Shown here: positions 14,427 through 49,936 of the stretch, piece by piece
How the letters are laid out: the number at the start of each line of letters is the position of its first letter
Numbering within the stretch: position 1 is the first letter of the stretch
NCBI GenBank assembly: GCA_001534745.1
Contig: CP013997.1
Location: forward strand, 4,464,001 to 4,528,000
Direction of reading: 5' to 3'
From: Pseudomonas monteilii
GTDB lineage: Bacteria; Pseudomonadota; Gammaproteobacteria; Pseudomonadales; Pseudomonadaceae
DNA length: 64,000 nt
Made by a program: the position numbers and the translations under genes
Notes under the pieces: model-generated
The model's input: only the letters and a program-made list of their open reading frames with translations
Database searches by the model: none
What the model was told of the DNA's origin: nothing

Positions 14427-14617
14427 TTATGATGAAAGGGGTGGCTAAGGATTGCGTTTTGCCCTGCGAGGAGGCTGCATGCGCTCAGAAAGTTGTGAAT
14501 AAAGCGGCAGGATTGGCTATTAATTGTCCTTCAATATGAAATATTCGAAAAATAAACCACTGAAGTAAGATTTTCGGCCTGCTTTCTTGCCCGTCTCCCT
14601 GCTTGACGGATCAATAC

Positions 14618-33220: not shown

Positions 33221-34687
33221 TCAATCGATTCCCAACTGATCCCACAGCTCGTCGATACGGCGAGTGACGGCATCATCCTTGACGATGACCCTGCCCCACT
33301 CGCGCGTGGTTTCGCCTGGCCACTTGTGGGTCGCGTCCAGGCCCATCTTCGACCCCAGGCCCGATACCGGCGACGCGAAGTCGAGGTAGTCGATCGGCGT
33401 GTTGTCGATCAGCACGGTATCACGCTTGGGATCCATGCGGGTGGTGACCGCCCAGATCACGTCGTTCCAGTCGCGGGCGTTGATGTCGTCGTCGGTCACG
33501 ATGACGAACTTGGTGTACATGAACTGGCGCAGGAACGACCAGACCCCCAGCATCACCCGCTTGGCATGGCCGGGGTACTGCTTCTTGATGGTCACCACCG
33601 CCATGCGGTACGAGCAGCCTTCGGGCGGCAGGTAGAAGTCGACGATTTCCGGGAACTGCTTTTGCAGGATCGGCACGAACACTTCGTTCAAGGCCACACC
33701 AAGGATCGCCGGCTCGTCGGGCGGCCGACCGGTATAGGTGCTGTGGTAGATCGGACGCAGGCGGTGGGTGATGCGCTCGACCGTGAACACCGGGAAGCGG
33801 TCCACTTCGTTGTAGTAGCCGGTGTGGTCGCCGTACGGGCCTTCGTCGGCCATTTCGCCAGGGTGGATCACCCCTTCGAGCACGATTTCCGCACTGGCCG
33901 GTACCTGCAGGTTGCTGCCGCGGCATTTCACCAGCTCGGTGCGATGACCGCGCAGCAAGCCTGCGAAGGCGTACTCCGACAGGCTGTCGGGCACGGGAGT
34001 GACCGCTCCCAGAATGGTCGCCGGGTCGGCGCCCAGGGCCACGGCCACGGGGAAGGGTTCGCCGGGATGCTTTTCGCACCATTCGCGGTAGTCCAGCGCA
34101 CCGCCCCGGTGGCTCAGCCAGCGCATGATGACCTTGTTGCGGGCGATCACCTGCTGGCGGTAGATGCCCAGGTTCTGCCGTTCCTTGTTGGGGCCGCGGG
34201 TCACGGTCAGGCCCCAGGTGATCAGCGGCGCGACATCGCCAGGCCAGCAGTGCTGGACAGGCAGCGCGCCCAGGTCGACGTCGTCGCCTTCGATCACGAT
34301 TTCCTGGCAGGCCGCGTCCTTGAGCACCTTGGGCGCCATGGAGATGATCTTTTTGAAGATCGGCAGCTTGGACCAGGCGTCCTTGAGGCCCTTGGGCGGC
34401 TCGGGCTCCTTGAGGAAGGCCAGCAGCTTGCCGATTTCCCGCAGCTCGCTCACCGACTCGGCGCCCATGCCCAGCGCCACGCGCCCGGGCGTGCCGAACA
34501 GGTTGCCGAGCACGGGCATGTCGAAACCGACGGGGTTCTCGAACAACAGCGCCGGGCCCTGCTTGCGCAAGGTCCGGTCGCAGATTTCGGTCATTTCCAG
34601 CACCGGTGATACCGGCACCGCAATGCGCTTCAGCTCGCCGCGCTGCTCTAGCTGCCGCACGAAGTCCCGCAGATCCTTGAATTCCAT
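33221..34687 (-). CDS. ubiD: 3-octaprenyl-4-hydroxybenzoate decarboxylase UbiD
   Basis: Prenylated-FMN-dependent decarboxylase of 488 residues in ubiquinone synthesis. Family parts are [20 protein letters not shown] at the start, [20 protein letters not shown] near 50, [20 protein letters not shown] near 170 and [15 protein letters not shown] near 290. The ATG of MEFKDL is preferred; a GTG 4 codons earlier is possible. It normally lies next to rho in P. putida, so the 11.6 kb between them here is probably inserted. Confidence 0.95.
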
Positions 34688-34727
34688 CGCCCAGGTCACA
34701 CTACAAAAGAGGCGCCTAGCTTACCTG

Positions 34728-35624
34728 CTATCCCTCGCCTGTGCGCAACCCCTCGGCGCATGACAGCAGCCGCTGCACCACGGTGCGCCTCGGGTGCGCC
34801 TGGGTAGCGAGCCCCAGCACGGCCCGCGGGCGCTCCAGCGCCAGGGCGCGGAAGGCCAGCCCTGGCCGCTGCATGCGCTGCATGGACGCCGGGACGATCG
34901 CCACGCCCATGCCGGCGGAAACCAGGTTGACCGCCGACGATACCTGCGGGGCCTGCTGATGGATCAGGGGGTTGAACCCGTGGGCACGACATTCGGCCAC
35001 GATATCGGCGCTCAACCCATGGCCTGACTGACGCGCATAGAGCACGAAGCGCTCGTGACGAAGATCCTCCAGACACAGACGATCACGTCGCGCCAGAGCA
35101 TGGCCGCTGGGTAACACCACCATGAGTGGTTCTTCGCTGAGGATGTGGAAGGCCAAGTCATCCGTGTCGGCAAAAGGAGGCCGGACGATGGCGGCATCCA
35201 GCTCCCCTTGGCTCAATCGCCGGATTAGCGTTTCGCTGTCATCTTCGAGCAGCGTGAGGCCGACGTCGGGACAGGCCTGCTGGTAACGGCTGATCAGCTG
35301 GGTGACCGTTTCGTTGAACGACGCCGACTCGGTGAATCCCAGGACCAATGTGCCAAGCTCGCCATTGGCCGCCCTGACGGCCTCTTTTTTCGCCTGCTCG
35401 ACGCGCGCCAGGATATCCAGCGCCGACGTGAGGAACACGGCGCCCGCATCACTGAGCACCACGCCGCGGCCCTGGCGCAAGAACAGCGGCGTACCGACTT
35501 CCTGCTCGAGGGCACGTATCTGCTGCCCCAGCGGAGGCTGGGCGATGTGCAGGGCCTGCGCGGCCTTGGTGAAGCTCTGGGCCTGGGCCGTGGCGACGAA
35601 ATAACGCAGATGACGAAGCTCCAT
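34728..35624 (-). CDS. LysR-type transcriptional regulator
   Basis: Regulator of 298 residues. The N-terminal winged helix-turn-helix (residues 1-60) reads MELRHLRYFVATAQAQSFTK and AAQALHIAQPPLGQQIRALE. A periplasmic-binding-like effector domain follows from about 90 (LVLGFTESASFNETV). It is divergent from the isocitrate lyase-family gene across 104 bp, the usual layout for a LysR regulator and its target. AT-rich sequence at 35640-35670 probably holds both promoters. The inducer is unknown. Confidence 0.93.
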   Translation of the reverse strand: MELRHLRYFVATAQAQSFTKAAQALHIAQPPLGQQIRALEQEVGTPLFLRQGRGVVLSDAGAVFLTSALDILARVEQAKKEAVRAANGELGTLVLGFTESASFNETVTQLISRYQQACPDVGLTLLEDDSETLIRRLSQGELDAAIVRPPFADTDDLAFHILSEEPLMVVLPSGHALARRDRLCLEDLRHERFVLYARQSGHGLSADIVAECRAHGFNPLIHQQAPQVSSAVNLVSAGMGVAIVPASMQRMQRPGLAFRALALERPRAVLGLATQAHPRRTVVQRLLSCAEGLRTGEG

Positions 35625-35728
35625 GGAACCTTTTACATCCTAATCAGGTACTTTTTAAATATTAGACATCCTCGACAAGGCCCGCCAAGCTTTTCCCTCC
35701 TTCCCGAGAGCAAGAGGCAGAGGACGCC

Positions 35729-36580
35729 ATGACCGTCACCGCACAGCTGCGTAAACACCTCGCCAGCGGCACCAGCCTGGTCGCCCCAGGCGCCTACGAT
35801 GGGCTGTCCTCGCGCCTGGTCGAACTGGCTGGGTTCCAGGCCGTCTACGCCAGCGGCGGCGCCATTGCGCGCTCCACGGCATTGCCGGACATCGGCCTGC
35901 TGAGCTTCAGCGAAGTGCTCGAGCGCATCGAGAAAATCGTCGACGCCACCACGCTTCCCGTGATCGCGGATGCCGACACCGGCTTTGGCGGCGGTCCCAA
36001 CGTCGAGCGAACCGTGCGCGCGTTCGAACGTATCGGTGTGGCGGCCCTGCACCTGGAAGACCAAGTCTTTCCCAAACGCTGCGGGCACCTGAACGACAAG
36101 ACACTGATCGCCCCGTCGGAGATGTGCACCAAGATCCGCATCGCGCGCCATGCCCTGCAGGATCCGGACTTCGTACTGATCGCCCGCACCGATGCGATCG
36201 CCGTCGAAGGTTTCGAGGCCGCCCTGGACCGTGCCGAGGCCTACATCGAAGCGGGTGCCGACATGATCTTCGTGGAGGCACCGGAGACCCTGGCGCAGAT
36301 CGAGGCGATCGCGCACCGTCTGCCCGGCCCGAAACTGATGAACATGTTCCACGGCGGCAAGACGCCCATGGTGCCGGTCGAGACCTTGGCAGCCTTGGGC
36401 TATCAGCTGGTGATCATCCCGTCGGACCTGCAACGCGCCGCGATCCACGCCATGCAGCAGACCTTGGCCGAGATCATGCGCAGCGGTGACAGCGCCGCGA
36501 TGGCCGACCAGCTCACCAGCTTCACGGAGCGCGAAGCGATCGTGCGCACCCAGCGCTACCTGGCCTTGGAAAAAGGCTGA
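35729..36580 (+). CDS. isocitrate lyase/PEP mutase-family enzyme
   Basis: Enzyme of 283 residues with the TIM-barrel motifs VIADADTGFGG (Mg-binding Asp residues) and LHLEDQVFPKRCGHL with the catalytic Cys used by C-C lyases of the family, such as methylisocitrate and 2,3-dimethylmalate lyase. PEP mutases lack that Cys, so a lyase acting on a substituted malate is the better guess. AGG precedes the ATG. It is divergently paired with the LysR gene and separated from the next gene by an operator-like sequence, so it is probably a separate unit. Confidence 0.88.
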   Translation: MTVTAQLRKHLASGTSLVAPGAYDGLSSRLVELAGFQAVYASGGAIARSTALPDIGLLSFSEVLERIEKIVDATTLPVIADADTGFGGGPNVERTVRAFERIGVAALHLEDQVFPKRCGHLNDKTLIAPSEMCTKIRIARHALQDPDFVLIARTDAIAVEGFEAALDRAEAYIEAGADMIFVEAPETLAQIEAIAHRLPGPKLMNMFHGGKTPMVPVETLAALGYQLVIIPSDLQRAAIHAMQQTLAEIMRSGDSAAMADQLTSFTEREAIVRTQRYLALEKG

Positions 36581-36588
36581 AACGGCGC

Positions 36589-36607
36589 ATCCAATTTAGG
36601 ATCCAAT
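36589..36607 (+). promoter_or_regulatory. VanR-like operator upstream of zapE-like gene
   Basis: ATCCAAT (36589-36595) is directly repeated as GGATCCAAT (36599-36607). TTAGGATCCAAT (36596-36607) matches the palindrome ATTGGATCCAAT at 10 of 12 positions. It lies just after the lyase gene and about 60 bp before the zapE-like ATG. Confidence 0.55.
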
Positions 36608-36667
36608 GTCTATCGTTGCGCAGTGACTATGGCTACTATCCGGCATCGGTCCTTGGTAGGGTTTGAG

Positions 36668-37765
36668 ATGAAACACGGTAATGCAGGAAACGAGGTGGTT
36701 GCCGCCATCGAGCAGGCTGCCCATGCCAAGGGCTATACGCTCGATGCCTACCAGGTGGCCGCTGCACGGCGCTTGGGCGACTTGACCCAGACGCTGCTCA
36801 ACCCTTCGTTGTTGATGCGACTCGGGCATCTGATGCCCCGTGGCCTCTACCTGTGGGGGCCGGTAGGACGCGGCAAGAGCTTCGTGCTGGATACGTTCTT
36901 CGCAGCCGTGCCCCTGCCCCAGAAACGTCGCATTCATTTCCATGCCTTCTTTCGTGAGTTCCACCAGCGCATGTTCGAGCATGCGGCCACGCCAAACGCG
37001 ATCGAAACGGCACTGGACAGTCTGCTCGGCGATTGCCGCCTGCTGTGCTTCGATGAGTTCCACCTGCATGACATTGGCGATGCCATGCTGGTCAGTCGCC
37101 TGTTCAAGGCCTTGCTCAATCGCCGCTGCGTGATGGTCGTGACCTCCAACTACCCACCTCAAGGCTTGCTGCCGAACCCGCTGTACCACGAGCGCTTCCT
37201 GCCGACCATCGAACTGATCGAACAGCACATGGACGTCCAGTCCGTGGCGGGCGACCTGGATTATCGCGCCTCCAGTGACGCCTCGGCAGATGCCTTCAAC
37301 CAGGGTGCCTTCGTGTCTCCCGGAACCGCCCAACAACGACAACACCTTGGCGTACCGGTCGGGTTGCCGGAGACGGGGCCGCTGACGGTCAATCACCGCG
37401 TGCTCGAGGGTCTGGTGCTGGATGACGACATGGTGTACTTCCGGTTCGCGGACCTGTGCGAAGCCGATTCAGCCACCATCGACTATCTGGCCCTGGCCGA
37501 TCGGTACACGCGCTGGGTGATCGATGCCGTACCCAGGTTGTCGACGGCCAGTGCAGCCGGGCAGCAACGCTTCCTCAACGTCATCGACGTGCTGTACGAC
37601 AAACGCGCCACGCTGTTTCTGATCAGCGAACTGCCGTTCGACCAGATGATGGATGCCTGCGAGGCCGGCGACCTGGCTCGCACGCGCAGCCGTGTGAGCC
37701 AGTTGCGCGATACGCATCAGGCTCCATCGGAAGCGACGAACAGACCCGCAACGGTGTGCGACTAA
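36668..37765 (+). CDS. ZapE/AFG1-like P-loop ATPase
   Basis: ATPase of 365 residues. Walker A is GPVGRGKSF near residue 77, Walker B LLCFDEFHLHDIGDA near 125, and sensor region VVTSNYPPQGLLPNPLYHERF near 160. This fits the AFG1/ZapE family, known for a division-linked ATPase that destabilises FtsZ. Core Pseudomonas genomes already carry a zapE near the mreB/rpsI region, as far as I recall, so this is likely a paralogue recruited to the locus. The start MKHGNAGNE has AGGG 6 bases upstream; earlier in-frame starts have none. Confidence 0.85.
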   Translation: MKHGNAGNEVVAAIEQAAHAKGYTLDAYQVAAARRLGDLTQTLLNPSLLMRLGHLMPRGLYLWGPVGRGKSFVLDTFFAAVPLPQKRRIHFHAFFREFHQRMFEHAATPNAIETALDSLLGDCRLLCFDEFHLHDIGDAMLVSRLFKALLNRRCVMVVTSNYPPQGLLPNPLYHERFLPTIELIEQHMDVQSVAGDLDYRASSDASADAFNQGAFVSPGTAQQRQHLGVPVGLPETGPLTVNHRVLEGLVLDDDMVYFRFADLCEADSATIDYLALADRYTRWVIDAVPRLSTASAAGQQRFLNVIDVLYDKRATLFLISELPFDQMMDACEAGDLARTRSRVSQLRDTHQAPSEATNRPATVCD

Positions 37766-37767
37766 AG

Positions 37768-37818
37768 AAGGGATCCAATCGGTGTTGCGCCGTATTGGGT
37801 GCTGATTTAGGATCCAAA
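37768..37818 (+). promoter_or_regulatory. promoter with two VanR-like operators before the permease gene
   Basis: A -35 box TTGCGC (37785-37790) and a -10 box TAGGAT (37808-37813) are 17 bases apart. GGATCC-centred sites flank and cover them: AAGGGATCCAAT (37768-37779) upstream of the -35, and TTAGGATCCAAA (37807-37818) overlapping the -10, centres 39 bp apart. This is the layout expected for repression by a GntR-family dimer. It should drive the permease-to-tautomerase genes. Confidence 0.65.
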
Positions 37819-37853
37819 ACGAATTACCCACATAACAAGAAAGGACTCGTGTG

Positions 37854-38606
37854 ATGATCGACGGGCTGACCATTGGATGGGCTCCCTACGCCCTGATTTT
37901 TGCCACCCTGCTATGTGCCTACGTGATTTTCGGCATTGCCGGGTTCGGGACTGCCCTGGTGGCGAGCCCCGTGCTGGCCCTGTTCCTGCCGGTTGCCAAG
38001 ATCGTTCCGCTTCTGGCGCTGATGGACCTGTTCGCGGCCCTGGTCAACGTGAGCCGTGACGGTCGTAATGCCGACTGGCGCGAACTGCGCCGCCTGGTCC
38101 CCATGATGATCCTCGGCAGCCTGATCGGCGCGGCCATCCTGTTGGCCACACGCCCTGAGTACCTGCTGCCGGCCCTGGGTGTCTTCGTGGTCTGTTATGC
38201 CCTGTATTCGCTGAGCGGGCTCAAGCCCCAGCGCCACTTCAGTGCAGCGGCGGCCTACCCGTTCGGCTCGATTGGCGGCGTCTTCAGCGCCTTGTTCGGT
38301 AGCGGCGGGTTCATCTACGCGATCTACCTCAGCGGCCGGATCCCGACCAAGGATGCCATGCGCATCACCCAGACCACGCTCATCGGGCTGAGTACGCTGA
38401 CCCGCGTGGTGCTGTTCGCGCTGGCCGGGGTGTACCTCGACACCAGCCTGCTGTGGCTGGCGCTCTTTCTCGCCCCTGGCATGTTGATCGGCGTCACCGT
38501 CGGGCGCCGCATCACGCTGAACATGTCGCGTGAACAATTCCTCAAGGTGATCAACATCGTGGTGCTCGTTTCCGGCATCACCTTGATCGCGCGTTATTAC
38601 GTTTGA
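37854..38606 (+). CDS. TauE/SafE-family membrane permease
   Basis: Inner-membrane protein of 250 residues with about 7-8 hydrophobic segments. The half-repeat pattern of the TauE/SafE (DUF81) family is visible: FGIAGFGTALVASPVLALFL near residue 24 and PFGSIGGVFSALFGSGGFIY near 140. Members move small organosulfur or carboxylate anions, mostly outward. AGGA precedes the ATG, which is preferred over the GTG one codon earlier. As the first gene after the operator-containing promoter, it probably carries the pathway's substrate or product. Confidence 0.85.
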   Translation: MIDGLTIGWAPYALIFATLLCAYVIFGIAGFGTALVASPVLALFLPVAKIVPLLALMDLFAALVNVSRDGRNADWRELRRLVPMMILGSLIGAAILLATRPEYLLPALGVFVVCYALYSLSGLKPQRHFSAAAAYPFGSIGGVFSALFGSGGFIYAIYLSGRIPTKDAMRITQTTLIGLSTLTRVVLFALAGVYLDTSLLWLALFLAPGMLIGVTVGRRITLNMSREQFLKVINIVVLVSGITLIARYYV

Positions 38607-38674
38607 CCTGCCGGCCTCTTCAGGAGGCCGCATCGGACCACGGCTTTCCCCACAACAACAACAAGGAAGTTCTG

Positions 38675-40201
38675 ATGGACGCTGGTGCGCACAACGAAAT
38701 GATGACAGGGGCCCAATTCCTGGACAGCCTCGACGATGGACGCGACGTGCATATCTATGGCGAGCGGGTGAAGAACGTCTGCGAGCACCCGGCTTTCCGC
38801 AATAGCGCCTACTCGCTGTCGCGGCTGTACGACGCGTTGCATGATCCGGCCACGCAGACGCTGATGACGGACATCGACCCGGACGGCTATCGAACGCATC
38901 GCTACTTCATGCCGGCACGCTCGTCCGCCGATCTGCTCAAGGCACGGGACGCCATCGCCCATTGGTCGCGTCTGTCCTATGGGTTCATGGGCCGTACGCC
39001 GGATTACAAGGCCGGCTTCACCGCGACCCTGCGCTCCGACCCACACCTCTATGCGCCGTTCCACGACAACGCCTTGGCCTGGTACCAGAAAAGCGCCCGC
39101 CAGGTGATGTTCCTCAACCACGTGTTGGTCAACCCACCCATAGGGCGGGCACGCAGCGTAGCGGAGATGCGCGACATCTACCTGCATGTGGAAAAGGAAA
39201 CGGACGCTGGCATCATCGTGCGCGGTGTGAAGATGGTGGCCACCAGCGCCGCCTTGTCCAATGCCACCTTCGTCGCGCAAAACAGCGCGACCCAGTACCG
39301 GGCCGGTACCGAAGAAGACTTTGCCCTGTGCTTCATCCTGCCGATGAACGCGCCCAACCTGAAGATCATGTGCCGCCGCTCCTATGAAGCTGCAGCCCTG
39401 AGCCCGTTCGACAATCCGTTGTCCAGCCGCTTCGACGAAAACGATTCGGTGCTGATCTTCGATGGCGTGCTTGTGCCCTGGGAAAACGTCTTGATCTACC
39501 GGGACGTCGAGCGGGCGCGCAGCTTCTACGCCGCGTCGGGCTTCCTGAACCGTTACCCGTTGCAGTCCGGCACCCGCCTGGCCGTCAAGATGGACTTCAT
39601 CTGCGGCCTGCTGGCCAAGGTGCTGGCATCCAACGGTTCGTCGGAATTCCGTGGCGTGCGTACGCGGCTGGCGGACATCGTGGCCCTGCGCAACATGCTG
39701 TGGACGTTGACCGAAAACCTGTGCCAGTCGCCCGAAGTCCGTCAGGATGGCTCGGTCGTGCCACGCCTCGAAGCCGCCGCCACCGTGCGCTACTTCGGCA
39801 CCCAGATGATGAGCCAGCTCAAGCCGGTCTTCAACACTATCCTTGGTGGCTCGCCGATCATGCAGGTATCCAGCTGGCTGGACATGGCCGACCCCCAGAC
39901 CCGGCCGTTGATCGATGACTATTACCAAGGCACGGGCCAGACTGCCTCCGAGCGCATGAAGCTGATCAAGCTGCTGTGGGACGCGCTGGGCAGCGAGTTC
40001 GCCGGTCGCCATGAGCTCTACGAGAACAACTACGCCGGCAACAACGAGCAGGTTCGCCTGGACATGCTGCGTCATTGCGAAACCGCCGGTGTGATGGATC
40101 AGTGCACCTCTCTGGTCGACCAGTGCCTGGGTGACTACGACGAAACCGGCTGGGCAGCGCCTGGCTGGCGGTTCGAGCCGCGACACCCCGAAATCCGCTG
40201 A
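38675..40201 (+). CDS. HpaB/PvcC-type FADH2-dependent monooxygenase
   Basis: Protein of 508 residues of the 4-hydroxyphenylacetate 3-monooxygenase (large component) family, related to acyl-CoA dehydrogenases. Visible parts are MMTGAQFLDSLDDGRDVHIY near the start, FLNHVLVNPPIGRARS near 145, GIIVRGVKMVATSAALSN near 185 and VLIFDGVLVPWENVLIYRDV near 270. Such enzymes hydroxylate phenols using reduced flavin from a separate reductase; none is encoded nearby. AAGGAAG lies 5 bases before the ATG. The substrate is unknown, and the family match is to the fold rather than to HpaB itself. Confidence 0.87.
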   Translation: MDAGAHNEMMTGAQFLDSLDDGRDVHIYGERVKNVCEHPAFRNSAYSLSRLYDALHDPATQTLMTDIDPDGYRTHRYFMPARSSADLLKARDAIAHWSRLSYGFMGRTPDYKAGFTATLRSDPHLYAPFHDNALAWYQKSARQVMFLNHVLVNPPIGRARSVAEMRDIYLHVEKETDAGIIVRGVKMVATSAALSNATFVAQNSATQYRAGTEEDFALCFILPMNAPNLKIMCRRSYEAAALSPFDNPLSSRFDENDSVLIFDGVLVPWENVLIYRDVERARSFYAASGFLNRYPLQSGTRLAVKMDFICGLLAKVLASNGSSEFRGVRTRLADIVALRNMLWTLTENLCQSPEVRQDGSVVPRLEAAATVRYFGTQMMSQLKPVFNTILGGSPIMQVSSWLDMADPQTRPLIDDYYQGTGQTASERMKLIKLLWDALGSEFAGRHELYENNYAGNNEQVRLDMLRHCETAGVMDQCTSLVDQCLGDYDETGWAAPGWRFEPRHPEIR

Positions 40202-40271
40202 CCGCTGACCTTTGAAAAACGATGCCCTCGGGCATCGACGGCCTTTCTTTGCCTGAAAACAGGAGATACCG

Positions 40272-41315
40272 ATGTTCTACACCGGTGAATGGAATCGTGA
40301 CGAAGTCGACTACAAGGCGCTGGCAGGACAATGGCATGTGTTGTGCCGCAGTGAAGACGTCGGCGTGCAGCAGCCGCTGGCCGCCAAACTGCTGGGCGAA
40401 GACCTGGTGCTGTGGCGAGACGAAGCAGGCCAGGTCCATGCCTGGAAAGACTACTGCGGCCACCGTGGCGCGCGCCTGTCCCTGGGCTGCGTCAAGCAGG
40501 GTGAAATCGAGTGCCCCTACCACGGCTGGCGCTACAACGCCCAAGGGCAGTGCACACGGGTACCTGCCCACCCGGAACGCAGCGGACCGGCCTCGCACCG
40601 CCTGGTGTACCGGCACCATGCGCAAGAGCGCTACGGCTATGTCTGGGTCAGCCTGGAAACGCCTCAGCGGCCCCTGCCCGAGCTGCCGCAATGGGAAGAC
40701 GACAGTTACCGGAAGGTCTACGCCGGTCCGTACCACTACAAGGCCAACGCGTTGCGGTCGCTGGAAAACTTCATCGACGCTTCGCATTTCCCCTTCGTCC
40801 ATGCTCACCTCAACGGTCTGCCGGACGCACCGGAACCGTTGAAAAAGTACAGCGTTCACGAAGACGAACGGGGCTTGCACTCGTCGGAGATCACGGTGTT
40901 CCAGCCGTTCGGCGATCACCGTGGCATACCCGTCAACGCGCGCTATACCTACTCGGTGCTCAATCCCACCACCGCGTACTTCATGAAGAAAACCGGCGAA
41001 ACCGAGCGTTTCTGCACGTTCTTCAATGCCACGCCGGTGGATGAAGCCGAGTGCATCATCTGGCTGATCGTGGCCATCAACTTCGGTCCGGAGCTGACCC
41101 TCGAGCAGATCCTCGCCCGTCAGAACACCGTGTTCGAGCAGGATCGGCGCATTGTCGAATCGCAACGCCCTGCCCGCCTGCCCTTGGATCCACGCGCGGA
41201 AATGCACGTGGTCAGCGACCGCATGGGCCTCGAATACCGCCGCTGGATCCATGCCCTGGGCCAGCGTGCGGTCAGCCAGAAGCAGGACTCCACCATCGCC
41301 ACGGTTTCCCTTTGA
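40272..41315 (+). CDS. Rieske non-haem iron oxygenase, alpha subunit
   Basis: Oxygenase component of 347 residues. The Rieske cluster ligands are in DYCGHRGARLSLG and ECPYHGWRYN (C-x-H...C-x2-H, about residues 62-82). The mononuclear iron site has ENFIDASHFPFVHAHL near 165, with the Asp and two His. The overall form is of the VanA/phthalate type that uses a separate reductase, and none is adjacent. These enzymes demethylate, hydroxylate or desaturate small molecules. AGGAG precedes the ATG. It lies 13 bp before the aminotransferase gene. Confidence 0.92.
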   Translation: MFYTGEWNRDEVDYKALAGQWHVLCRSEDVGVQQPLAAKLLGEDLVLWRDEAGQVHAWKDYCGHRGARLSLGCVKQGEIECPYHGWRYNAQGQCTRVPAHPERSGPASHRLVYRHHAQERYGYVWVSLETPQRPLPELPQWEDDSYRKVYAGPYHYKANALRSLENFIDASHFPFVHAHLNGLPDAPEPLKKYSVHEDERGLHSSEITVFQPFGDHRGIPVNARYTYSVLNPTTAYFMKKTGETERFCTFFNATPVDEAECIIWLIVAINFGPELTLEQILARQNTVFEQDRRIVESQRPARLPLDPRAEMHVVSDRMGLEYRRWIHALGQRAVSQKQDSTIATVSL

Positions 41316-41328
41316 CAAGGACTGCCCC

Positions 41329-42699
41329 ATGAACCCGAATGCTTTGCACATGCTGGCCGCACGAGAATCCAACGCCCGCACCTATGCCAGAAACATTCCC
41401 AGGCTTTTGAGCCAAGGCCAGGGCGCCGAGGTCATCGACAGCGAGGGTCGCCATTACCTGGACTGCCTGGCCTGCGCGGGCGCGCTACCCTTGGGCCATA
41501 ACCATCCGTTCGTCCGCGATCGGGTGATCGCCTTTCTTCAATCGGGACAACTGCAGCAGGCGCTGGACATCGCCACTCCCGCGAAAGTCGACTTCGTCGA
41601 GGAGCTGTACCGGGCGCTTCCCGCCGAATTTGCCGCCAACGCTCGCTTCCAGCTCTGCGGTCCTACGGGCGCGGATGCCGCCGAAGCAGCACTCAAGCTG
41701 TTCAAGACCGCCACCGGGCGGCGTCCGGTCATCGTCTTCCAAGGCGCCTACCATGGCATGACCCACGGCACGCTGGGCATGATGGGCAATCTGGCGCCCA
41801 AGCATGCCATCAGCGGGTTGCCCGGCGAGGTGCATTTTGCGCCGTATCCCTATGCCTTCCGCAGCCCCTTTGGCGCAGGTGTGCATGCCGCAGACACCGA
41901 TGCGCTGAGCCTGGCGTGCCTGGACAACCTGCTCAGCGACCCTGAAAGCGGCGTTGGCAAGCCCGCCATGGTGCTGCTCGAAGCCATCCAGGGCGAAGGA
42001 GGCTGCATTCCCGCCAGCGCCCATTGGCTGCGTCAGGTACGAGAGATCACCACGCGGCATCACGTTCCGCTGGTGATCGACGAGATTCAGAGCGGCATTG
42101 GTCGCAGTGGCGACATGTTCGCCTTCGAGCACGCCGGCATCACCCCCGACGCCATCCTGCTCTCCAAAGCCATCGGTGGAGGTTACCCCCTGTCCGTGCT
42201 GGTCTACCTGGACCAGTACGACCTGTGGAAACCCGGTGCGCACGCCGGCACGTTCCGGGGTAACCAGATCGCGCTGGTCAGCGGTGCCGCCACCCTGGAA
42301 TACATTCGCCAGGAGGGCCTGCTCGATCATGTACGTCAGGTGGGCGCTCAACTGCGGGACGGCCTGCTACGACTCCAGCAGGAACATACCTGCATCGGCG
42401 ACGTTCGAGGCCGGGGCCTGATGTTGGGCATGGAGCTGGTCGACCCAGAGGGCGCACTGGATACCCAGGGTCATCGTCTGGCTGCGGGTGAATTGGCCAC
42501 ACGCGTGAAGCGGGCCTGTCTGGACGAAGGTCTGCTCATCGAAACGGGCGGGCGGCACGGCGCGGTGCTACGTTTCCTGCCACCGCTGGTGATCACGTCC
42601 ACGCAAGTGGAGCAGATCCTGCAGCGTCTTGGCCGCGCACTGCAACGCACGCTGGCTCAATCGCCCCAGGTGGCGAACGCACTGGAGGCGCAAGCATGA
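41329..42699 (+). CDS. class III PLP aminotransferase (diaminobutyrate aminotransferase-like)
   Basis: Aminotransferase of 456 residues. QLCGPTGADAAEAALKLFK binds phosphate, VFQGAYHGMTHGTLGMMG precedes the core, PLVIDEIQSGIGRSGDMFAF holds the PLP-ring Asp, and LLSKAIGGGYPLSVLVY the Schiff-base Lys. The pattern is closest to omega-aminotransferases of the Dat/EctB/RhbA kind. The start MNPNALHML has AAGGA 8 bases upstream. Its stop overlaps the N-hydroxylase start by 4 bases. This pairing is also found in hydroxamate siderophore loci, but no siderophore synthetase is present here. Confidence 0.93.
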   Translation: MNPNALHMLAARESNARTYARNIPRLLSQGQGAEVIDSEGRHYLDCLACAGALPLGHNHPFVRDRVIAFLQSGQLQQALDIATPAKVDFVEELYRALPAEFAANARFQLCGPTGADAAEAALKLFKTATGRRPVIVFQGAYHGMTHGTLGMMGNLAPKHAISGLPGEVHFAPYPYAFRSPFGAGVHAADTDALSLACLDNLLSDPESGVGKPAMVLLEAIQGEGGCIPASAHWLRQVREITTRHHVPLVIDEIQSGIGRSGDMFAFEHAGITPDAILLSKAIGGGYPLSVLVYLDQYDLWKPGAHAGTFRGNQIALVSGAATLEYIRQEGLLDHVRQVGAQLRDGLLRLQQEHTCIGDVRGRGLMLGMELVDPEGALDTQGHRLAAGELATRVKRACLDEGLLIETGGRHGAVLRFLPPLVITSTQVEQILQRLGRALQRTLAQSPQVANALEAQA

Positions 42700-43997
42700 A
42701 CCGTCTCTCGCCTGTCGTCGACATCCTGGGCATCGGCTTCGGCCCGGCCAACCTGGCCTTGGCCATCGCGCTCGAAGAGCTGGCACCTCACTTGGACGTG
42801 GCCTTTCTCGAGCGGCGTCTGGGGCCGCTCTGGCAGCCCAACATGCTGCTGCCCGGCTCGGACATCCAGAACCATCCGCTGCGCGACCTGGTGACGCCAC
42901 GCAATCCACGCAGCCGCTATGGCTTCACCAACTTCCTCTTCGAGCAAGGCCGTCTCTACGAGCATTTGAACCTGCCGCTGCATTATCCCTTGCGCGAAGA
43001 GTACGCCCAGTACGTCACCTGGGCTGCCGGCTTCTTCGCCGACCGCGTGCAGTATGGCTGCGAAGCACAGGCCGTGGCGCTGGTCGAGGCGCCTGAAGGC
43101 GAGCGTCACTACCAGGTGACCTGTACCGACGGCCGTGTCGTGTGCGCACGGGCGCTGGTCCTGGCGCCCGGCCGCACCCCTCACATCCCGGCACCCTTCG
43201 CGGGGATCAGCGACGCCCGTGTTCGCCACCTGAACGACTACCTGCCAGCGCTGGCCGAAAGCATCGCTGCGACGGGCGGCCAATCTCGGGTGGCGGTGAT
43301 CGGTGGCAGCCAGAGCGCCGTGGAAATCCTGCTCCATGCCAGCGAACAGTCGGGCGTCCGGGACGTGGTGGGCTTCACACGCAATTTCGGTTACCGGCAA
43401 AAAGACACCAGCCCGTTTTCCGATGAGGTCTACTTTCCTGCCTTCGTCGATACGTTCTACAGCGCCACCCCCGACCAGAAAGCACGGCTGCGCCGGGAGC
43501 TGGTACACACCAACTATTCGGCGGCCGATATCGACGTGCTCAACCAATTGTACGTGCGTCGCTACGAGCAGTCCCTGCGTGGTGAAAGTCGGCTGCAGTT
43601 GCGCACGTGCGAGGAGATCCAGGCGTGTCGTCCGTCGCCCGGACAGGTGGAGATAGAAAGCCGGCACGCCCTCGAGGGCCGTCATCATCGCCAAGGGTTC
43701 GATCTGGTCATCCTGGCCACCGGTTTTCTCGACCTTGGCCAGGGCGAACGACAGGAGCCTGTGCCGCCGCTGCTGGCCACGTTGGTTGGCGAGTACGCAC
43801 ACGCAGGGCTGTCGGTTCAGCGCGACTACCGCATCGACTTGGGCAACGCGCTACCGATCTATCTGAATGGTCTGTGCGAATCCACTCATGGGATGGGCGA
43901 TGCGGGTTCCTTCAGCTTGCTAGCACTGCGCGCCCAGTCCATCGTCGAGTCGCTGAGCGCTTGCCTGGCGGCTCCAGAGCGCGTCGATCATGCATAG
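42696..43997 (+). CDS. SidA/IucD/PvdA-type flavin N-hydroxylase
   Basis: FAD- and NADPH-dependent monooxygenase of 433 residues. The FAD motif DILGIGFGPANLALAIALEE is at residues 8-27, the NADPH motif VAVIGGSQSAVEILLH near 200, and the family C-terminal motif DLVILATGFLDL near 335. Members hydroxylate the terminal amine of lysine, ornithine or a related diamine. Its substrate may be the product or precursor of the upstream aminotransferase. The start overlaps the upstream stop (ATGA) and its own stop overlaps the next start by 8 bases, so the three genes are tightly coupled. Confidence 0.93.
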   Translation: MNRLSPVVDILGIGFGPANLALAIALEELAPHLDVAFLERRLGPLWQPNMLLPGSDIQNHPLRDLVTPRNPRSRYGFTNFLFEQGRLYEHLNLPLHYPLREEYAQYVTWAAGFFADRVQYGCEAQAVALVEAPEGERHYQVTCTDGRVVCARALVLAPGRTPHIPAPFAGISDARVRHLNDYLPALAESIAATGGQSRVAVIGGSQSAVEILLHASEQSGVRDVVGFTRNFGYRQKDTSPFSDEVYFPAFVDTFYSATPDQKARLRRELVHTNYSAADIDVLNQLYVRRYEQSLRGESRLQLRTCEEIQACRPSPGQVEIESRHALEGRHHRQGFDLVILATGFLDLGQGERQEPVPPLLATLVGEYAHAGLSVQRDYRIDLGNALPIYLNGLCESTHGMGDAGSFSLLALRAQSIVESLSACLAAPERVDHA

Positions 43998-45246
43998 TCC
44001 AGGCTTGCGCGAATTGCTGACGGCGCCCTCGTGCTGGCAAGCCCGACTGACCTGCCGTCAGGTCCATGGCGCGCCCCTGCCCCTGCAAACCGATGTCGCC
44101 GTCATCGGTGCCGGTATCGGCGGCCTGGCCGCCGCGCAGCGGGCACTCGAAGCGGGGCTGTCCGTTACGGTACTGGAAGCGAACCAGGTAGGCAGCGGCG
44201 GCAGCGGTCGAAACTCGGGCTTTGTGGTTCCCGTGCCTGCTCGCCACACGCCAGACTCGCTTCGTCGATGCGTGGGCAGTGGTACCAGCGTCTTGATGGC
44301 AGCACTTCAAGAGGCTGTCCACGGTGTGTTCGAGCAGGCACCGGGCGCGGATCGGCGTGGCTGGTTGCAACCGTTCACGCCGACAGCATCCACCCAGGCA
44401 CAGACACTGGCCGCCGGTTGGCGAGCCTTGGGCGTGGAGGTCACCGTACTCGAAGGTGAAGCCCTGGCGCATGCAATCGGCACCTCTCGCTATACGAAGG
44501 CGCTGCACTTCCCAGGTGGGGGAGCCATCAATCCCATGACCTTGCTGCAACAGATGGCCAATGCGATCCATCACCAGGGTGGCTCGATCATCGAGCAGTG
44601 TCCAGTCATCCGAGTTACCCCCAAGGGCCGTGGGGTCACCCTGGAAACGCCGGCAGGCTGCCTGAGTGCAGGTCGTGTCTTCATCGCCGGTAATGCCTAC
44701 GGCACCGGAGCCAGCCGGGTGACCCGCCACGCCGTAGGCCCCCTTCCGCTCACTTTGGCCACCTTCGCGTTGCCTCGCCCTGCCGCATCCAGCCCGCTGC
44801 CTTTTTCCGACACTCACAAGGACATGTGGTTTGCGCGCTGGCTTGACGCCCGTACGGTCTTGACCGGATGTTTCGCCCTTCCGCTGCAGCGAGGGGCGAA
44901 AGCCTGTGGCGATCTGTTGCAGGCGCGCCTGGAAGGGTTGTACGGCCACCGCCCTGCGACACCGTGTCAACAGTGGGCCGGTTGGGTGGGCTTGACGCCC
45001 GACGGCCTGCCCAAGGTCCACGACAGCGAAGGACGCGTTCTCAGCTGGAGTGGCTGCAATGGCCGCGGTATCGCCCTTTCGCTGATGATGGGCCGAACCC
45101 TGATGGACCAGCTGTGCGGGCTGACCGGAATACGCCTTCCCCTGACTGCACCGGGCTGGCAACCGAGCACGGTGCTGGCCTGGCTGGCACAGGCCGTCAT
45201 CGCTCGAGACCGTTACCAACAACGCCGCGCCCTGCTGGCGCTTTGA
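43990..45246 (+). CDS. DAO-family FAD-dependent amine/amino-acid oxidase
   Basis: Flavoprotein of 418 residues. A 35-residue N-terminal stretch precedes the FAD motif VAVIGAGIGGLAAAQRALEA and GGSGRNSGFVVP. ALHFPGGGAINPMTLLQQMA near 175 and SWSGCNGRGIALSLMMGRTL near 350 match the substrate and second FAD regions of PuuB/DadA-type oxidases. It would oxidise a C-N bond to an imine. It overlaps the N-hydroxylase gene by 8 bases. The substrate is not known; one option is an N-hydroxylated or secondary amine made by its neighbours. Confidence 0.88.
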   Translation: MHSPGLRELLTAPSCWQARLTCRQVHGAPLPLQTDVAVIGAGIGGLAAAQRALEAGLSVTVLEANQVGSGGSGRNSGFVVPVPARHTPDSLRRCVGSGTSVLMAALQEAVHGVFEQAPGADRRGWLQPFTPTASTQAQTLAAGWRALGVEVTVLEGEALAHAIGTSRYTKALHFPGGGAINPMTLLQQMANAIHHQGGSIIEQCPVIRVTPKGRGVTLETPAGCLSAGRVFIAGNAYGTGASRVTRHAVGPLPLTLATFALPRPAASSPLPFSDTHKDMWFARWLDARTVLTGCFALPLQRGAKACGDLLQARLEGLYGHRPATPCQQWAGWVGLTPDGLPKVHDSEGRVLSWSGCNGRGIALSLMMGRTLMDQLCGLTGIRLPLTAPGWQPSTVLAWLAQAVIARDRYQQRRALLAL

Positions 45247-45270
45247 GCCTCTTTTACACGAGACACCACC

Positions 45271-45900
45271 ATGAGCGCCTGTCCCTTTCATTATTCGCAG
45301 TACCGCTCCACCTCACCCCAACTGATCGACCGCTTCATCGACGCCTTTCCCCTGGCGGTTCTCACCTCGCACGAAGAAGGCCGCTTCTTTTCAAGTCATG
45401 TGCCGCTGCTGCGCCAGGCGGACGGTTCGCTGTTCGGCCATGTGGACGGCCGCAATCCTCAGTTTCGCGGCCAGGAGGAGATCCGTTGCCAGATCATCTT
45501 CATGGGGCCGTCTGCCTACATTCCGCCTGAGGCGTATGTCTCCTCTCAGCTACCGACCTGGAATTACCTCGCCGTGCACATGCAGGCCATCGTCCGTGTC
45601 TCCGAGAGCCTCCACCAGAACCTCGAGATCCTGCAGCAGACGGCTCAGCGATTGGCGACCAGCGACCGGAGCTACCGCGTTGACCCGACCGACCCCAGGG
45701 TGTCGAGCAATCTGCCCCATATCCTCGGCCTGAACATTCAGCCGATCTCCGTGGAGGGTCGCTTCAAGCTATCCCAGGACAAGACCGCGTTCGATGCCTC
45801 GGCTGCGCTGGACCATCTGCTGTCTCGAAGCCTCGACGAGCACCACGACCTGCTGGCCGACCTGCTGACGCCTGCCCCCTTGCATCCTACTGAGGCCTGA
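45271..45900 (+). CDS. PaiB-like FMN-binding protein
   Basis: Protein of 209 residues of the PaiB (FMN-binding negative transcriptional regulator) family. It shows FPLAVLTSHEEGRFFSSHVP near 30, HVDGRNPQF near 65, FMGPSAYIPPEAYVSSQLPT near 85 and WNYLAVHMQ near 105, the split-barrel flavin-binding core. Bacillus PaiB was linked to regulation, but many members are likely flavin enzymes. Here it ends a run of redox genes, so an enzymatic or flavin-supplying role is as likely as regulation. Confidence 0.87.
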   Translation: MSACPFHYSQYRSTSPQLIDRFIDAFPLAVLTSHEEGRFFSSHVPLLRQADGSLFGHVDGRNPQFRGQEEIRCQIIFMGPSAYIPPEAYVSSQLPTWNYLAVHMQAIVRVSESLHQNLEILQQTAQRLATSDRSYRVDPTDPRVSSNLPHILGLNIQPISVEGRFKLSQDKTAFDASAALDHLLSRSLDEHHDLLADLLTPAPLHPTEA

Positions 45901-45902
45901 GC

Positions 45903-46292
45903 ATGCCCATCGTACGTATAGAAGACCCCGTGCACCGAACCCCTGAAACACGCCAGGCGATCATCGAGACGGTTTACCGTTGCCTGCGCCAGGTATTCAA
46001 GGTCAGCGACGAGGAGCTGCAAGCGCGTTATCACACCTACGCCGCCCCTGATTTTCGCAGTCCGGGGGACTGCGAGGCCTTTCTCCAGATCGAGATCACT
46101 GTTTTCAAAGGGCGAACGCTGGAGACCAAGCGGCGGCTGTACCAGGCCATCAGCCAGGCGCTGTCGGAGCAGCTTCACCTGCCGGCGCAGGCCATGCTGA
46201 TCCTGCTCGACGAGCGTGAGGGCGAGAACTGGGGCATGCGCGGCGGCATACCTGCGTGTGAGATCGATTTCGGCTATGCCATCGACATCTAG
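45903..46292 (+). CDS. tautomerase-superfamily protein
   Basis: Protein of 129 residues starting MPIVRIED, so Pro-1 is exposed after Met removal as in 4-oxalocrotonate tautomerase and MIF-like enzymes. The length is twice that of 4-OT subunits, with the second half (IEITVFKGRTLETKRRLYQA) matching the beta-alpha-beta repeat. Such enzymes tautomerise enols or dehalogenate. It begins 2 bp after the PaiB-like stop and is followed by a perfect terminator hairpin, so it ends the transcript. Confidence 0.88.
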   Translation: MPIVRIEDPVHRTPETRQAIIETVYRCLRQVFKVSDEELQARYHTYAAPDFRSPGDCEAFLQIEITVFKGRTLETKRRLYQAISQALSEQLHLPAQAMLILLDEREGENWGMRGGIPACEIDFGYAIDI

Positions 46293-46324
46293 CACCGAGA
46301 CGTCCCAGCGGGAGCAGTAAACGA

Positions 46325-46348
46325 AAACGGCGCCCGAAGGCGCCGTTT
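46325..46348. terminator. bidirectional terminator between tautomerase and rho genes
   Basis: AAACGGCGCC (46325-46334) and GGCGCCGTTT (46339-46348) form a perfect 10-bp stem with loop CGAA. It has A residues on the left and T residues on the right, so it can end both the plus-strand block and the minus-strand rho transcript. Confidence 0.9.
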
Positions 46349-46364
46349 CTGTTCGAAGCGTCTG

Positions 46365-47624
<1,260 letters not shown>

Positions 47625-47820
47625 AAGGGGAGTGACGTAATCATGTAAGAAGGGAGGATTAAGCTTCTGGCTTAATGAAGCCGCGCCGCAAGAAGGCGAC
47701 AGGATCGCGTACTGATTCGAATTGGGGGTGCATCGGCGACGGCGTGCAGAGGGCACTGGAGAAACAGTGCGAGGCCGAATGTATCACTTGCTTTTTTCGA
47801 CGTCTAGTGATTTGCAAAAG

Positions 47821-47849
47821 AAAAGCCCCGGAAATCCGGGGCTTTTTCG
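47821..47849 (-). terminator. terminator of trxA
   Basis: AGCCCCGGA (47824-47832) and TCCGGGGCT (47835-47843) form a strong stem. On the minus strand it is followed by TTTTCTTTT. It lies 22 bp after the trxA stop and separates trxA from the rho leader. Confidence 0.9.
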
Positions 47850-47864
47850 TCGCTCGGGCCTGCC

Positions 47865-48191
47865 TTAGAGGTTGGCGTCGAGGAACGCGGCCAGCTGCGA
47901 CTTGGACAGTGCACCCACCTTGGTGGCCTCGACGTTGCCGTTCTTGAACAGCATCAGGGTCGGGATGCCACGCACGCCGTGCTTGGCCGGGGTTTCCTGG
48001 TTTTCGTCGATGTTCAGCTTGGCGACGGTCAGCTTGCCTTCGTAAGTGGAGGCGATGTCGTCCAGCACAGGGGCGATCATCTTGCAGGGACCGCACCATT
48101 CGGCCCAGTAGTCGACCAGTACCGGACCTTCGGCCTTGAGCACTTCGGCCTCGAAGGTGGCATCGGTGACGTATTTGATCAGATCGCTCAT
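47865..48191 (-). CDS. trxA: thioredoxin 1
   Basis: Cytoplasmic disulphide reductase of 108 residues with the active site [10 protein letters not shown] near residue 31 and the cis-proline in GIPTLMLF. The start MSDLIKYV is chosen because it gives the exact family length; the frame is open 42 codons farther but unlike thioredoxin. It sits between ppx and rho, the usual trxA-rho order in gammaproteobacteria. Confidence 0.98.
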
Positions 48192-48433
48192 GGATATCTC
48201 CATATCATAGGCAAGAAAACGTAACCCATCATAGCCGCACCGGCGCGCTACAGGAAGCTGCGGGCGATTGGCAGTCACTATAGCAGTGCTTGATTGCATC
48301 AATCGTGACGGCCCCATGACAGCCCTGCGCAGCCCGATTACCTGCTCTCCGTCAAGCTCACACGCAGCACGCGTTGGCGTGCGGCGTGGATCGTGGCACG
48401 ATTGTCGGGTAATCGACCGAGAACCTCGAGATC

Positions 48434-49936
48434 ATGCCGCATACCAAAGCGAAGAACCTGTCCCTGATCGCCGCCATCGACCTTGGCTCCAACAGCTTCC
48501 ACATGGTTGTGGCCAAGGCCCACCTGACCGAGATCCGCATTCTCGAGCGACAGGGCGAGAAGGTTCAGCTGGCCGCCGGCATCGGCGAGGATCGCCTGCT
48601 CAGCGAGGAAGCCATGCAACGCGGCCTCGACTGCCTCAAGCGCTTCGCCCAACTGATCAATGGCCTGCCCGATGGCGCCGTCAGGATCGTCGGCACCAAC
48701 GCCCTGCGCGAAGCCCGCAACCGGGCCGAGTTCATCCACCGGGCCGAGGCCATCCTGGGTCATCCCGTGGAGGTCATCTCCGGCCGCGAAGAAGCGCGCC
48801 TGATCTACCTGGGCGTTTCACACACCCTGGCCGACACCCCAGGCAAGCGCCTGGTCGCCGACATCGGCGGTGGCAGTACCGAGTTCATCATCGGCCAGCG
48901 GTTCGAACCCCTGCTGCGCGAAAGCCTGCAAATGGGCTGCGTGAGCTTCACGCAGCGTTATTTCCGCGACGGCAAGATCACCCCGGCGCGTTACGCACAA
49001 GCCTACACGGCCGCGCGCCTGGAGCTGATGAGCATCGAGCATGGCCTGCATCGGCTGGGCTGGGACGAAGCCATCGGTTCGTCCGGCACCATCCGCGCCA
49101 TCGGCGCGGCCATCAAGGCCGGTGGACAAGGGTCTGGCGAAGTCAATGCGGCTGGCCTGGCCTGGCTCAAGCGCAAGCTGTTCAAGCTTGGCGAGACCGA
49201 CAAGATCGACTTCGACGGGGTCAAGCCGGACCGCCGTGCGATCTTCCCGGCCGGGTTGGCGATCCTCGAAGCCATCTTCGATGCCCTGGAGCTGCAGCAG
49301 ATGACCCACTGCGACGGCGCGCTGCGTGAAGGCGTGCTGTACGACCTGCTGGGCCGTCATCATCACGAAGACGTGCGCGAGCGCACCCTCAGCTCCCTGA
49401 TGGAGCGGTACCACGCCGACCAGCAGCAAGCCGAACGCGTCGAGCGCAAGGCGTTGCATGCCTTCGATCAGGTGGCCGCCGCCTGGGGCCTCGAGGAAGG
49501 CAACTGGCGGGACCTGCTGGGCTGGGCGGCCAAGGTGCACGAGATCGGGCTGGACATCGCGCATTACCACTACCACAAGCACGGCGCCTACCTGATCGAA
49601 CACTCTGACCTGGCGGGGTTCTCGCGCGAGGACCAGCAGATGCTGGCGCTGCTGGTGCGTGGCCATCGACGCAACATTCCCAAGGACCGTTTCGCGGAGT
49701 TCGGCGCAGAAGGCGAGACCTTGATCCGCCTGTGCGTGCTGCTGCGCTTCGCCATCCTCTTCCACCATATCCGCGGCACCCAGCAGATGCCCAAGGTCGA
49801 GTTGCATCCCGGGCACGACCGACTGGACGTGGTGTTCCCGGAAGGCTGGCTGGAACAGAACCAGCTGACCCAGGCCGACTTCGCCAACGAGGCGCAGTGG
49901 CTGGCTCGGGTCGGCTTCGTCCTCAGCGTACGCTGA
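48434..49936 (+). CDS. ppx: exopolyphosphatase
   Basis: Enzyme of 500 residues that removes terminal phosphates from polyphosphate and possibly pppGpp. The ASKHA-fold motifs are [17 protein letters not shown] at residues 12-28, [10 protein letters not shown] near 97 and [12 protein letters not shown] near 140. The C-terminal HD-like domain has [20 protein letters not shown] near 370. It is divergent from trxA and convergent with ppk. Both end in LSVR because the overlap is a palindrome. Confidence 0.96.

Follow-up and report, generated by a model that had tools for sequence, protein, structure and literature searches.

A nine-gene block between ubiD and rho of Pseudomonas monteilii, possibly a horizontally spread biosynthetic operon for a small nitrogenous compound

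Gene content and unity of the block

The 64,000-nucleotide stretch of the Pseudomonas monteilii genome analysed here (the window; the host genome is one contig of 4.71 Mb) harbors, between ubiD and rho, a block of nine plus-strand genes encoding an AFG1-like ATPase, a TauE/SafE-type permease, an HpaB-type oxygenase, a Rieske oxygenase, a class III aminotransferase, a SidA-family N-hydroxylase, a DAO-family oxidase, an FMN_bind_2 ('PaiB') protein and a tautomerase (Table 1). These genes had been listed in this order by an earlier sequence-only reading, and domain scans find all nine open and intact with the named domains present. The block is a real unit, and we consider it about evenly balanced whether it is a horizontally spread biosynthetic operon that would work along the pathway proposed below, in which L-2,4-diaminobutyrate would be N-hydroxylated and the product oxidised further and exported.

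The sequence-only reading had stated that several of the genes overlap by 4-8 bases; the two values are right (4 bases at the aminotransferase/SidA junction and 8 bases at the SidA/DAO junction), but overlaps are confined to these two junctions and the remaining intergenic gaps measure 2 to 85 bases. The perfect terminator placed at the end of the block is likewise present, with 10-base arms and a CGAA loop, and rho ends on its opposite side in convergent orientation. This stem is not in the terminator-scan output and was found by reading the sequence. A promoter scan of positions 34500-48500 returned no sigma-70-type promoter. The GC content of the block is 0.60-0.66 and that of the flanks is similar.

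Table 1. Features of the block and its flanks, in window positions (L and G numbers, here and in the text, are our handles for loci and genomes)
Feature	Positions	Strand	Domains and remarks
ubiD	33221-34699	-	flanks the block
LysR-type regulator	34728..35624	-	PF00126, PF03466; divergent from the block
Isocitrate-lyase/PEP (phosphoenolpyruvate)-mutase-superfamily C-C lyase, methylisocitrate-lyase-like	35729..36580	+	PF13714
TTTAGGATCCAAT operator-like site, upstream of the AFG1-like gene	36595..36607	+	GGATCCAA at the matching position in L033, L034 and L035
AFG1/ZapE-like P-loop ATPase	36623..37765	+	PF03969; NF040713 above cut-off
Pair of GGATCCAA sites before TauE, at a spacing of 39 bases	37771..37818	+	spacing identical in L033, L034 and L035
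TauE/SafE-type permease, predicted exporter	37851..38606	+	PF01925
HpaB-type two-component flavin monooxygenase, oxygenase part	38675..40201 (ATG 38675)	+	PF11794, PF03241
Rieske mononuclear-iron oxygenase (Rieske/VanA-C)	40272..41315	+	PF00355, PF19112
Class III aminotransferase, L-2,4-diaminobutyrate type	41329..42699 (ATG 41329)	+	TIGR00709
SidA-family flavin N-hydroxylase (Lys/Orn N-oxygenase)	42696..43997	+	PF13434
DAO-family amino acid/amine oxidase, glycine/sarcosine/proline-oxidase fold	43990..45246	+	PF01266
FMN_bind_2 ('PaiB') protein, piperazate synthase/NohD/PaiB heme family	45271..45900	+	
Tautomerase-superfamily protein, N-terminal Pro	45903..46292	+	PF14552, PF01361
Terminator between tautomerase and rho	46324..46348		AAACGGCGCC-CGAA-GGCGCCGTTT, one flanking A
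rho	46365-47756	-	flanks the block, convergent

As had been supposed, the block was inserted between ubiD and rho, because 13 of 18 other genomes of the genus have the two genes as neighbours (rho no more than 1.5 kb from ubiD); rho also lies beside ubiD in six of the eight genomes of other families that have a ubiD match. Among the fetched loci, ubiD and rho are found in the flanks of L033-L035 only, and the block therefore sits at different places in different genomes. It is also carried by plasmid pBRH01 of Mycetohabitans rhizoxinica HKI 454, where its genes are annotated singly under general names.

The genes travel together, as the sequence-only reading had asked to be checked. Two peptide patterns derived from aligned sequences of 14 SidA relatives were used to scan the genome collection, which yielded 42 loci (a sample and not a census); the Rieske, aminotransferase and SidA genes occur together in 26 of those 42, fetched from named genomes of Pseudomonas, Photorhabdus, Chromobacterium, Azohydromonas, Mycetohabitans, Paraburkholderia, Caballeronia and Stenoxybacter. 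In these 26 block loci, a denominator that comprises named genomes only and includes L038 and L049, both cut by contig ends, the Rieske gene is present in all, the heme/PaiB gene in 24, TauE in 24, HpaB in 22, the AFG1-like gene in 21, the tautomerase in 21, DAO in 18 and the upstream lyase in 10. Within the genus (398 genomes, that of the window included; 3 to 7 candidates at most scored per genome, E limits 1e-3, 1e-25, 1e-60 and 1e-100), SidA at 70% identity or more, the PaiB type and Rieske at 79% or more share the same seven genomes, one of which (G051) has an estimated contamination of 9%. HpaB at 86% or more is found in five of those seven, HpaB of 44-50% in 12 other genomes and Rieske homologues of 46-48% in eight further ones. 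The nearest named records of SidA are those of Pseudomonas entomophila strains 4A7 and 6C6 (93%). The pairwise distances of block proteins across loci, after dropping seven near-duplicates of 29 loci, correlate with r between 0.55 (TauE-DAO) and 0.96 (SidA-DAO and Rieske-SidA), a value to which shared descent of the host species contributes, and for each of the 36 pairs none of 500 permutations was as high. No paper on a cluster with this gene set was found in searches of an open-access collection (titles and abstract starts; subscription papers lie mostly outside it), which agrees with the earlier remark that no described pathway with this set was known to the reader.

The aminotransferase and N-hydroxylase pair and its hydrazine-type relatives

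The aminotransferase passes the test for a diaminobutyrate-2-oxoglutarate transaminase, with 476.8 bits against the TIGR00709 cut-off of 401.6, and its best structure matches are diaminobutyrate transaminases. The SidA-family enzyme fails the residue test for an L-ornithine N5-hydroxylase (Lys69 and Asn254 of PvdA): Arg63 and Asp243 replace the ornithine-type Lys and Asn in 30/30 block rows, whereas all seven PvdA/KtzI-type rows carry Lys and Asn at these positions (L067, L073 and L086 are left out of this residue table). Arg is also present in each of the 21 nearest non-block rows. An Arg in place of Lys could, we infer, reach a shorter substrate, and by its residues and its place in the SidA tree (below) the enzyme is predicted to act on L-diaminobutyrate, not as an ornithine-type hydroxylase.

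That the block is a fragment of hydroxamate siderophore biosynthesis is suggested by the SidA family itself and by its sole NCBIfam match, far below the cut-off, to histamine N-hydroxylase, a siderophore enzyme. The ornithine-type residues are absent, however, the host genome carries a separate PvdA-like gene (L090) with Lys/Asn, and no IucA/IucC, non-ribosomal peptide synthetase (NRPS) or acyltransferase is recognised among the block genes, in line with the earlier remark that synthetases of known siderophores are missing. We regard a siderophore origin as very improbable, and an ornithine hydroxylase or siderophore fragment was rejected on residues and gene content.

The nearest relatives of the SidA protein outside the block lie in 25 loci (L057, L059-L069, L071-L074 and L081-L089; 43-52% identity, L074 being a fragment). 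The same aminotransferase is encoded on the same strand at most 1.5 kb from SidA in 23 of them, in 16 of which the distance is at most 250 bases, and hydrazine-synthetase-type cupin and methionyl-tRNA synthetase (MetRS)-like genes are found in 11 of the 25. No such aminotransferase was found in the four other loci tested, L090-L093, with PvdA-like or distant SidA genes. In the SidA tree (10 of 62 rows dropped; the program warned of long branches), the block forms one clade (100/98), which is joined (96/86) to a 10-row clade with six rows from loci with cupin and MetRS genes; the Streptacidiphilus locus L071, with cupin, MetRS, DAO, SidA and aminotransferase genes, falls inside the same larger clade. 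The likeness to actinopyridazinone-type hydrazine clusters (Apy9-Apy11: hydrazine synthetase, flavin adenine dinucleotide-dependent oxidoreductase and diaminobutyrate N4-hydroxylase) thus consists in the aminotransferase and SidA pair of related loci and the neighbouring SidA clade, whereas the block lacks the cupin/MetRS pair and has the heme protein, Rieske and HpaB instead. A test for a hydrazine synthetase, by tblastn with the L063 cupin and MetRS, gave no cupin match in the window or in 29 block loci; for MetRS, L036 and L077 each returned a single distant match (23%), located some 5 kb away from the block. The block DAO has only remote similarity (22% and 24%) to the DAO proteins from two hydrazine-type loci. 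A review (PMC11705231) reports that one hydrazine cluster encodes an N4-hydroxylase devoted to diaminobutyrate, Apy11, and that N4-hydroxy-diaminobutyrate is converted to 5-aza-proline by KtzT (slightly) and PAI2.

In L081, L082 and L084-L089, SidA and the diaminobutyrate-type aminotransferase occur in a 19.9 kb stretch that gave no match for a cupin, MetRS, Rieske or PaiB-type gene, which is a further use of the pair; the adjoining genes are, by their sequences, EamA-like in L081, and LysE-like and GNAT-like in L087. Another arrangement is that of L131, the 28.9 kb Xenorhabdus plasmid pXT29, where a MetRS-like gene, an adenylation protein, SidA and an aminotransferase ('ectB') lie near a Tn3-family transposase gene.

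The heme-family protein and the oxidising enzymes

Sequence searches, profile searches and a structural model (predicted local distance difference test score, pLDDT, of 87.6) converge on PaiB, SbPZS, LnzB, KtzT, PipS and NohD, which places the FMN_bind_2 protein in the heme family that comprises piperazate synthase, the dehydratase NohD and PaiB. The label of a PaiB-like flavoprotein, given in the sequence-only reading, is not supported, since the nearest solved members of this fold family bind heme and the heme-ligand His and the Thr/Lys pair are kept. Equivalents of SbPZS His61 (the heme ligand), Asn66, Thr102 and Lys173 are present in 28/28 block rows, and the protein agrees with piperazate synthases in its fold, His61 and the Thr102/Lys173 pair. 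Its close relatives form a separated set, 66 of the 70 found having E values up to 6e-34 and the next 8e-12. In structure comparisons, VIA-align ranks NohD (9oqt and 9oqu) first, with SbPZS and PaiB no more than 1 Z unit away, and Foldseek ranks PaiB (9vyc) first. The four synthases examined (SbPZS, KtzT, PipS and LnzB) all have Asn63, Ala100 and Tyr150, and PDB entry titles report NohD mutated to A59N, V96A and R144Y; these three positions may thus define synthases. A match at SbPZS Asp177/Lys178 lends no support to a canonical piperazate synthase, as KtzT, PipS and LnzB have Glu/Gln there. PMC12154649 concerns another heme family.

Across relatives, HpaB, Rieske, the AFG1-like ATPase, the tautomerase and the upstream lyase keep their catalytic motifs. 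The HpaB-type protein shares the fold family of the 4-hydroxyphenylacetate 3-hydroxylase HpaB and of SgcC (4oo2), but scores 560 bits against a TIGR02310 cut-off of 885.2 and so fails the HpaB-2 4-hydroxyphenylacetate 3-monooxygenase test, and no HpaC gene is recognised in the block. R113, Y117 and H155 of E. coli HpaB, the phenol-binding triad, are kept in 26/26 rows, the E. coli row included, which would point to a phenol or a phenol-like hydroxy-heteroaromatic substrate. The PaiB protein as flavin reductase of HpaB was considered and is possible though less likely, being kept in loci without HpaB (L036, L037, L039 and L077). Six flavin-reductase-domain genes lie elsewhere in the host genome, and beside ubiD there is a gene for a ferredoxin-domain, nicotinamide adenine dinucleotide-binding reductase (32252-33220, minus strand; PF00111, PF00175), which the block Rieske enzyme could borrow.

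The closest solved relatives of the Rieske enzyme are SxtT/SxtDIOX, with NdmA also related; all of these act on nitrogen-rich rings. Four loci with Rieske homologues of about 45% were fetched from the genus, and two were Pfam-scanned: in L133 the homologue is accompanied by a reductase, an amidohydrolase, an AllG/AtzH-domain protein and an ABC (ATP-binding cassette) transporter, and in L135 by a reductase, a RES-domain gene and a GntR-family gene. The L133 neighbours give a weak hint at nitrogen-rich rings as Rieske substrates. For the DAO protein (model m05030baf0615, pLDDT 81.5), the best chains are 4ysh, 1ng3 and 3ad9, and the structure search returns the whole glycine/sarcosine/proline-oxidase family at similar scores and so does not point to one substrate; among the matches is NikD, which aromatises a ring imino acid.

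A proposed pathway and its alternatives

Based on gene content, intact motifs, block unity, family placements and residue patterns, we hypothesize that the aminotransferase would convert aspartate semialdehyde to L-2,4-diaminobutyrate and that SidA would hydroxylate its 4-amino group to give N4-hydroxy-diaminobutyrate. The heme 'PaiB' protein would then break the N-O bond, either with N-N closure to pyrazolidine-3-carboxylate ('5-aza-proline') or with loss of water to an imine. The product would next be oxidised by the Rieske, DAO and phenol-type HpaB enzymes, with a hydroxylated aromatic nitrogen heterocycle as the most sensible outcome, and be exported by TauE, with the tautomerase, lyase and AFG1-like ATPase as accessory proteins. 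For the pathway as a whole we see the arguments for and against as nearly level. The best supported part, which we hold to be rather probable, is that from aspartate semialdehyde to N4-hydroxy-diaminobutyrate, to judge from families, residues and neighbours; our confidence in it was lowered slightly because the SidA Arg is shared with a lysine-type enzyme. Ring closure by the heme protein is a tentative assignment that we hold to be somewhat less likely than not, and dehydration or other N-O chemistry is of about the same likelihood, with a slight preference for closure on the logic of the pathway. Closure is plausible because it has a precedent as a side reaction of KtzT/PAI2 and gives the later oxidases a ring, and an aromatic hydroxypyrazole for HpaB would be a natural continuation; dehydration is disfavoured because, unless some enzyme intervened beforehand, it would reverse the aminotransferase reaction. 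The making of a small nitrogenous compound, perhaps aromatic, as the sequence-only reading had put it, fits the diaminobutyrate-type aminotransferase, the non-ornithine N-hydroxylase and the phenol triad of HpaB.

Several findings weigh against this pathway. The SidA Arg is not specific to diaminobutyrate, as it is also found in 5cqf, labelled an L-lysine 6-monooxygenase, and in second copies in L065 and L072, and the nearest relatives differ among themselves at the second SidA position, with Gly, Glu, Asp or Asn there. The His/Asn/Thr/Lys set of the heme protein is kept in NohD and PaiB too and so does not discriminate; plain PaiB, which keeps it, is said in PMC13274692 to be without N-N activity, and the set is therefore no proof of catalysis. 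The positions of Asn63, Ala100 and Tyr150 are occupied by Asp, Leu and Arg in 28/28 block rows, failing the synthase residue test, and wild-type NohD, a dehydratase, carries Arg at the position of the block's Arg; these residues argue against ring closure. DAO is absent from eight of the 26 block loci (one a contig cut) and HpaB from four, as well as from genomes G188 and G122; therefore the end product may differ or the HpaB and DAO steps may be non-essential. No flavin or Rieske reductase, for either Rieske or HpaB, is recognised among the block genes. Finally, the LysR regulator, the lyase, the tautomerase and the HpaB and Rieske types are also typical of breakdown pathways.

The heme residues bear directly on a route in which the heme protein, like NohD, would dehydrate the N-hydroxylamine to an imine, the product being an acyclic aldehyde, enamine, nitrile or otherwise-made ring without an N-N bond. 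An Arg equivalent to NohD Arg144 in all 28 rows, the absence of the synthase-type Asn/Ala/Tyr and the top VIA-align rank of NohD would favour such a route, although the margin over SbPZS and PaiB is no more than 1 Z unit and Foldseek puts PaiB first. Of the NohD signature Ala59, Val96 and Arg144 (PDB 9oqs series), however, the block shares only the Arg along with the fold, so that the NohD test fails too; at positions 63 and 100, NohD and PaiB both differ from the block's Asp and Leu, and the reaction would be a futile loop back to the imine of the aminotransferase's presumed substrate unless another enzyme came first. We consider this route somewhat unlikely. By that signature the heme protein appears to be neither a canonical piperazate synthase nor NohD, though with NohD's Arg. 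According to PMC11705231, the synthase PipS only dehydrates several non-native substrates.

The block is, on its sequence, predicted to work like an N-hydroxylase and heme-enzyme pair that fails the residue tests for both piperazate synthase and NohD. With the KtzI-KtzT pairs it shares a SidA N-hydroxylase and a heme protein of FMN_bind_2 fold with the His ligand and the Thr/Lys pair, but its N-hydroxylase lacks Lys/Asn, there is no NRPS, and an aminotransferase, Rieske and HpaB are additional.

An upstream lyase and a LysR-type regulator bear on a third explanation; the sequence-only reading had missed both, as well as the relation of the SidA/aminotransferase pair to hydrazine-forming clusters. 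The lyase belongs to the block in some lineages: it is present at 43-97% identity in the ten loci mentioned above, and a LysR orthologue lies beside it in L033-L035 (81-96%) and L039 (68%). It scores 298.8 bits with TIGR02317, below the cut-off of 354.4. A phosphonate route via PEP mutase was ruled out on the motif K(R/K)CGH, found in 12/12 rows (KRCGH in the window), which is that of a lyase. If the operon instead served to degrade or detoxify an aromatic or nitrogen-ring compound, HpaB and Rieske would oxidise this substrate, the tautomerase and lyase would finish it, and the aminotransferase and oxidase would recover nitrogen; the LysR regulator, the methylisocitrate-lyase-like enzyme, the tautomerase and the HpaB and Rieske types would suit this role, as would the gene adjoining the lyase in L039, by its sequence a carboxylate-type permease. 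But no ring-cleavage dioxygenase, coenzyme A ligase or uptake system is recognised among the block genes, the aminotransferase is of the diaminobutyrate family and many of the nearest SidA/aminotransferase pairs sit in hydrazine-synthetase-type clusters, and we deem this explanation improbable.

Returning to the biosynthetic pathway, its most specific form is a Proteobacterial route to a pyrazolidine or hydroxypyrazole amino acid, in which a diaminobutyrate N4-hydroxylase, a heme enzyme of a third class (Asp/Leu/Arg) closing a five-membered N-N ring, oxidation by DAO, Rieske and HpaB to an aromatic hydroxypyrazole, and TauE export would follow one another; in this full form we think it unlikely, a shade more so than the dehydratase route. 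Enzymes that use heme for N-O cleavage and N-N formation are few, and the PDB titles of NohD show that the steering residues are under study; in the block family these positions carry a third, naturally occurring combination, the predicted substrate is a different one, and the hosts are tractable bacteria. An N-N heterocycle made without an NRPS or a cupin/MetRS pair would be a short new route to pyrazolidines or pyrazoles. Several block hosts are insect-, nematode- or fungus-associated, and a compound shared by such unrelated bacteria would point to an ecological role.

Among the accessory genes, the AFG1-like ATPase has conserved Walker A/B motifs in 24/24 rows, and PADLOC gave no result for it; the tautomerase has Pro directly after the start Met in 25/25 rows. 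The three GGATCCAA sites resemble operators of VanR-like GntR regulators, and the nine genes may therefore have their own promoters. TTTAGGATCCAA occurs twice in the genome, both times at the block; a relaxed operator pattern was not above chance within the window. A similar palindromic AATTGGATCCAAT site (14415-14427, minus strand) lies just upstream of a leuA-like gene (12654-14351, minus strand; PF00682, PF08502).

Elsewhere in the window, the Rfam Pseudomon-Rho leader RNA (RF01720, 111.3 bits) is found at 47680-47779 on the minus strand, before rho, and a 6S RNA at 25147-25325. The product of a plus-strand gene at 28365-31382 is 1005 residues long and has a VasX domain at its N-terminus (PF20249), the later part of the gene lying in low-GC sequence (0.46-0.52 over 30000-31999), and behind it (31376-32242, plus strand) follows a 288-residue protein with no Pfam match, perhaps the immunity partner of the VasX-domain protein.

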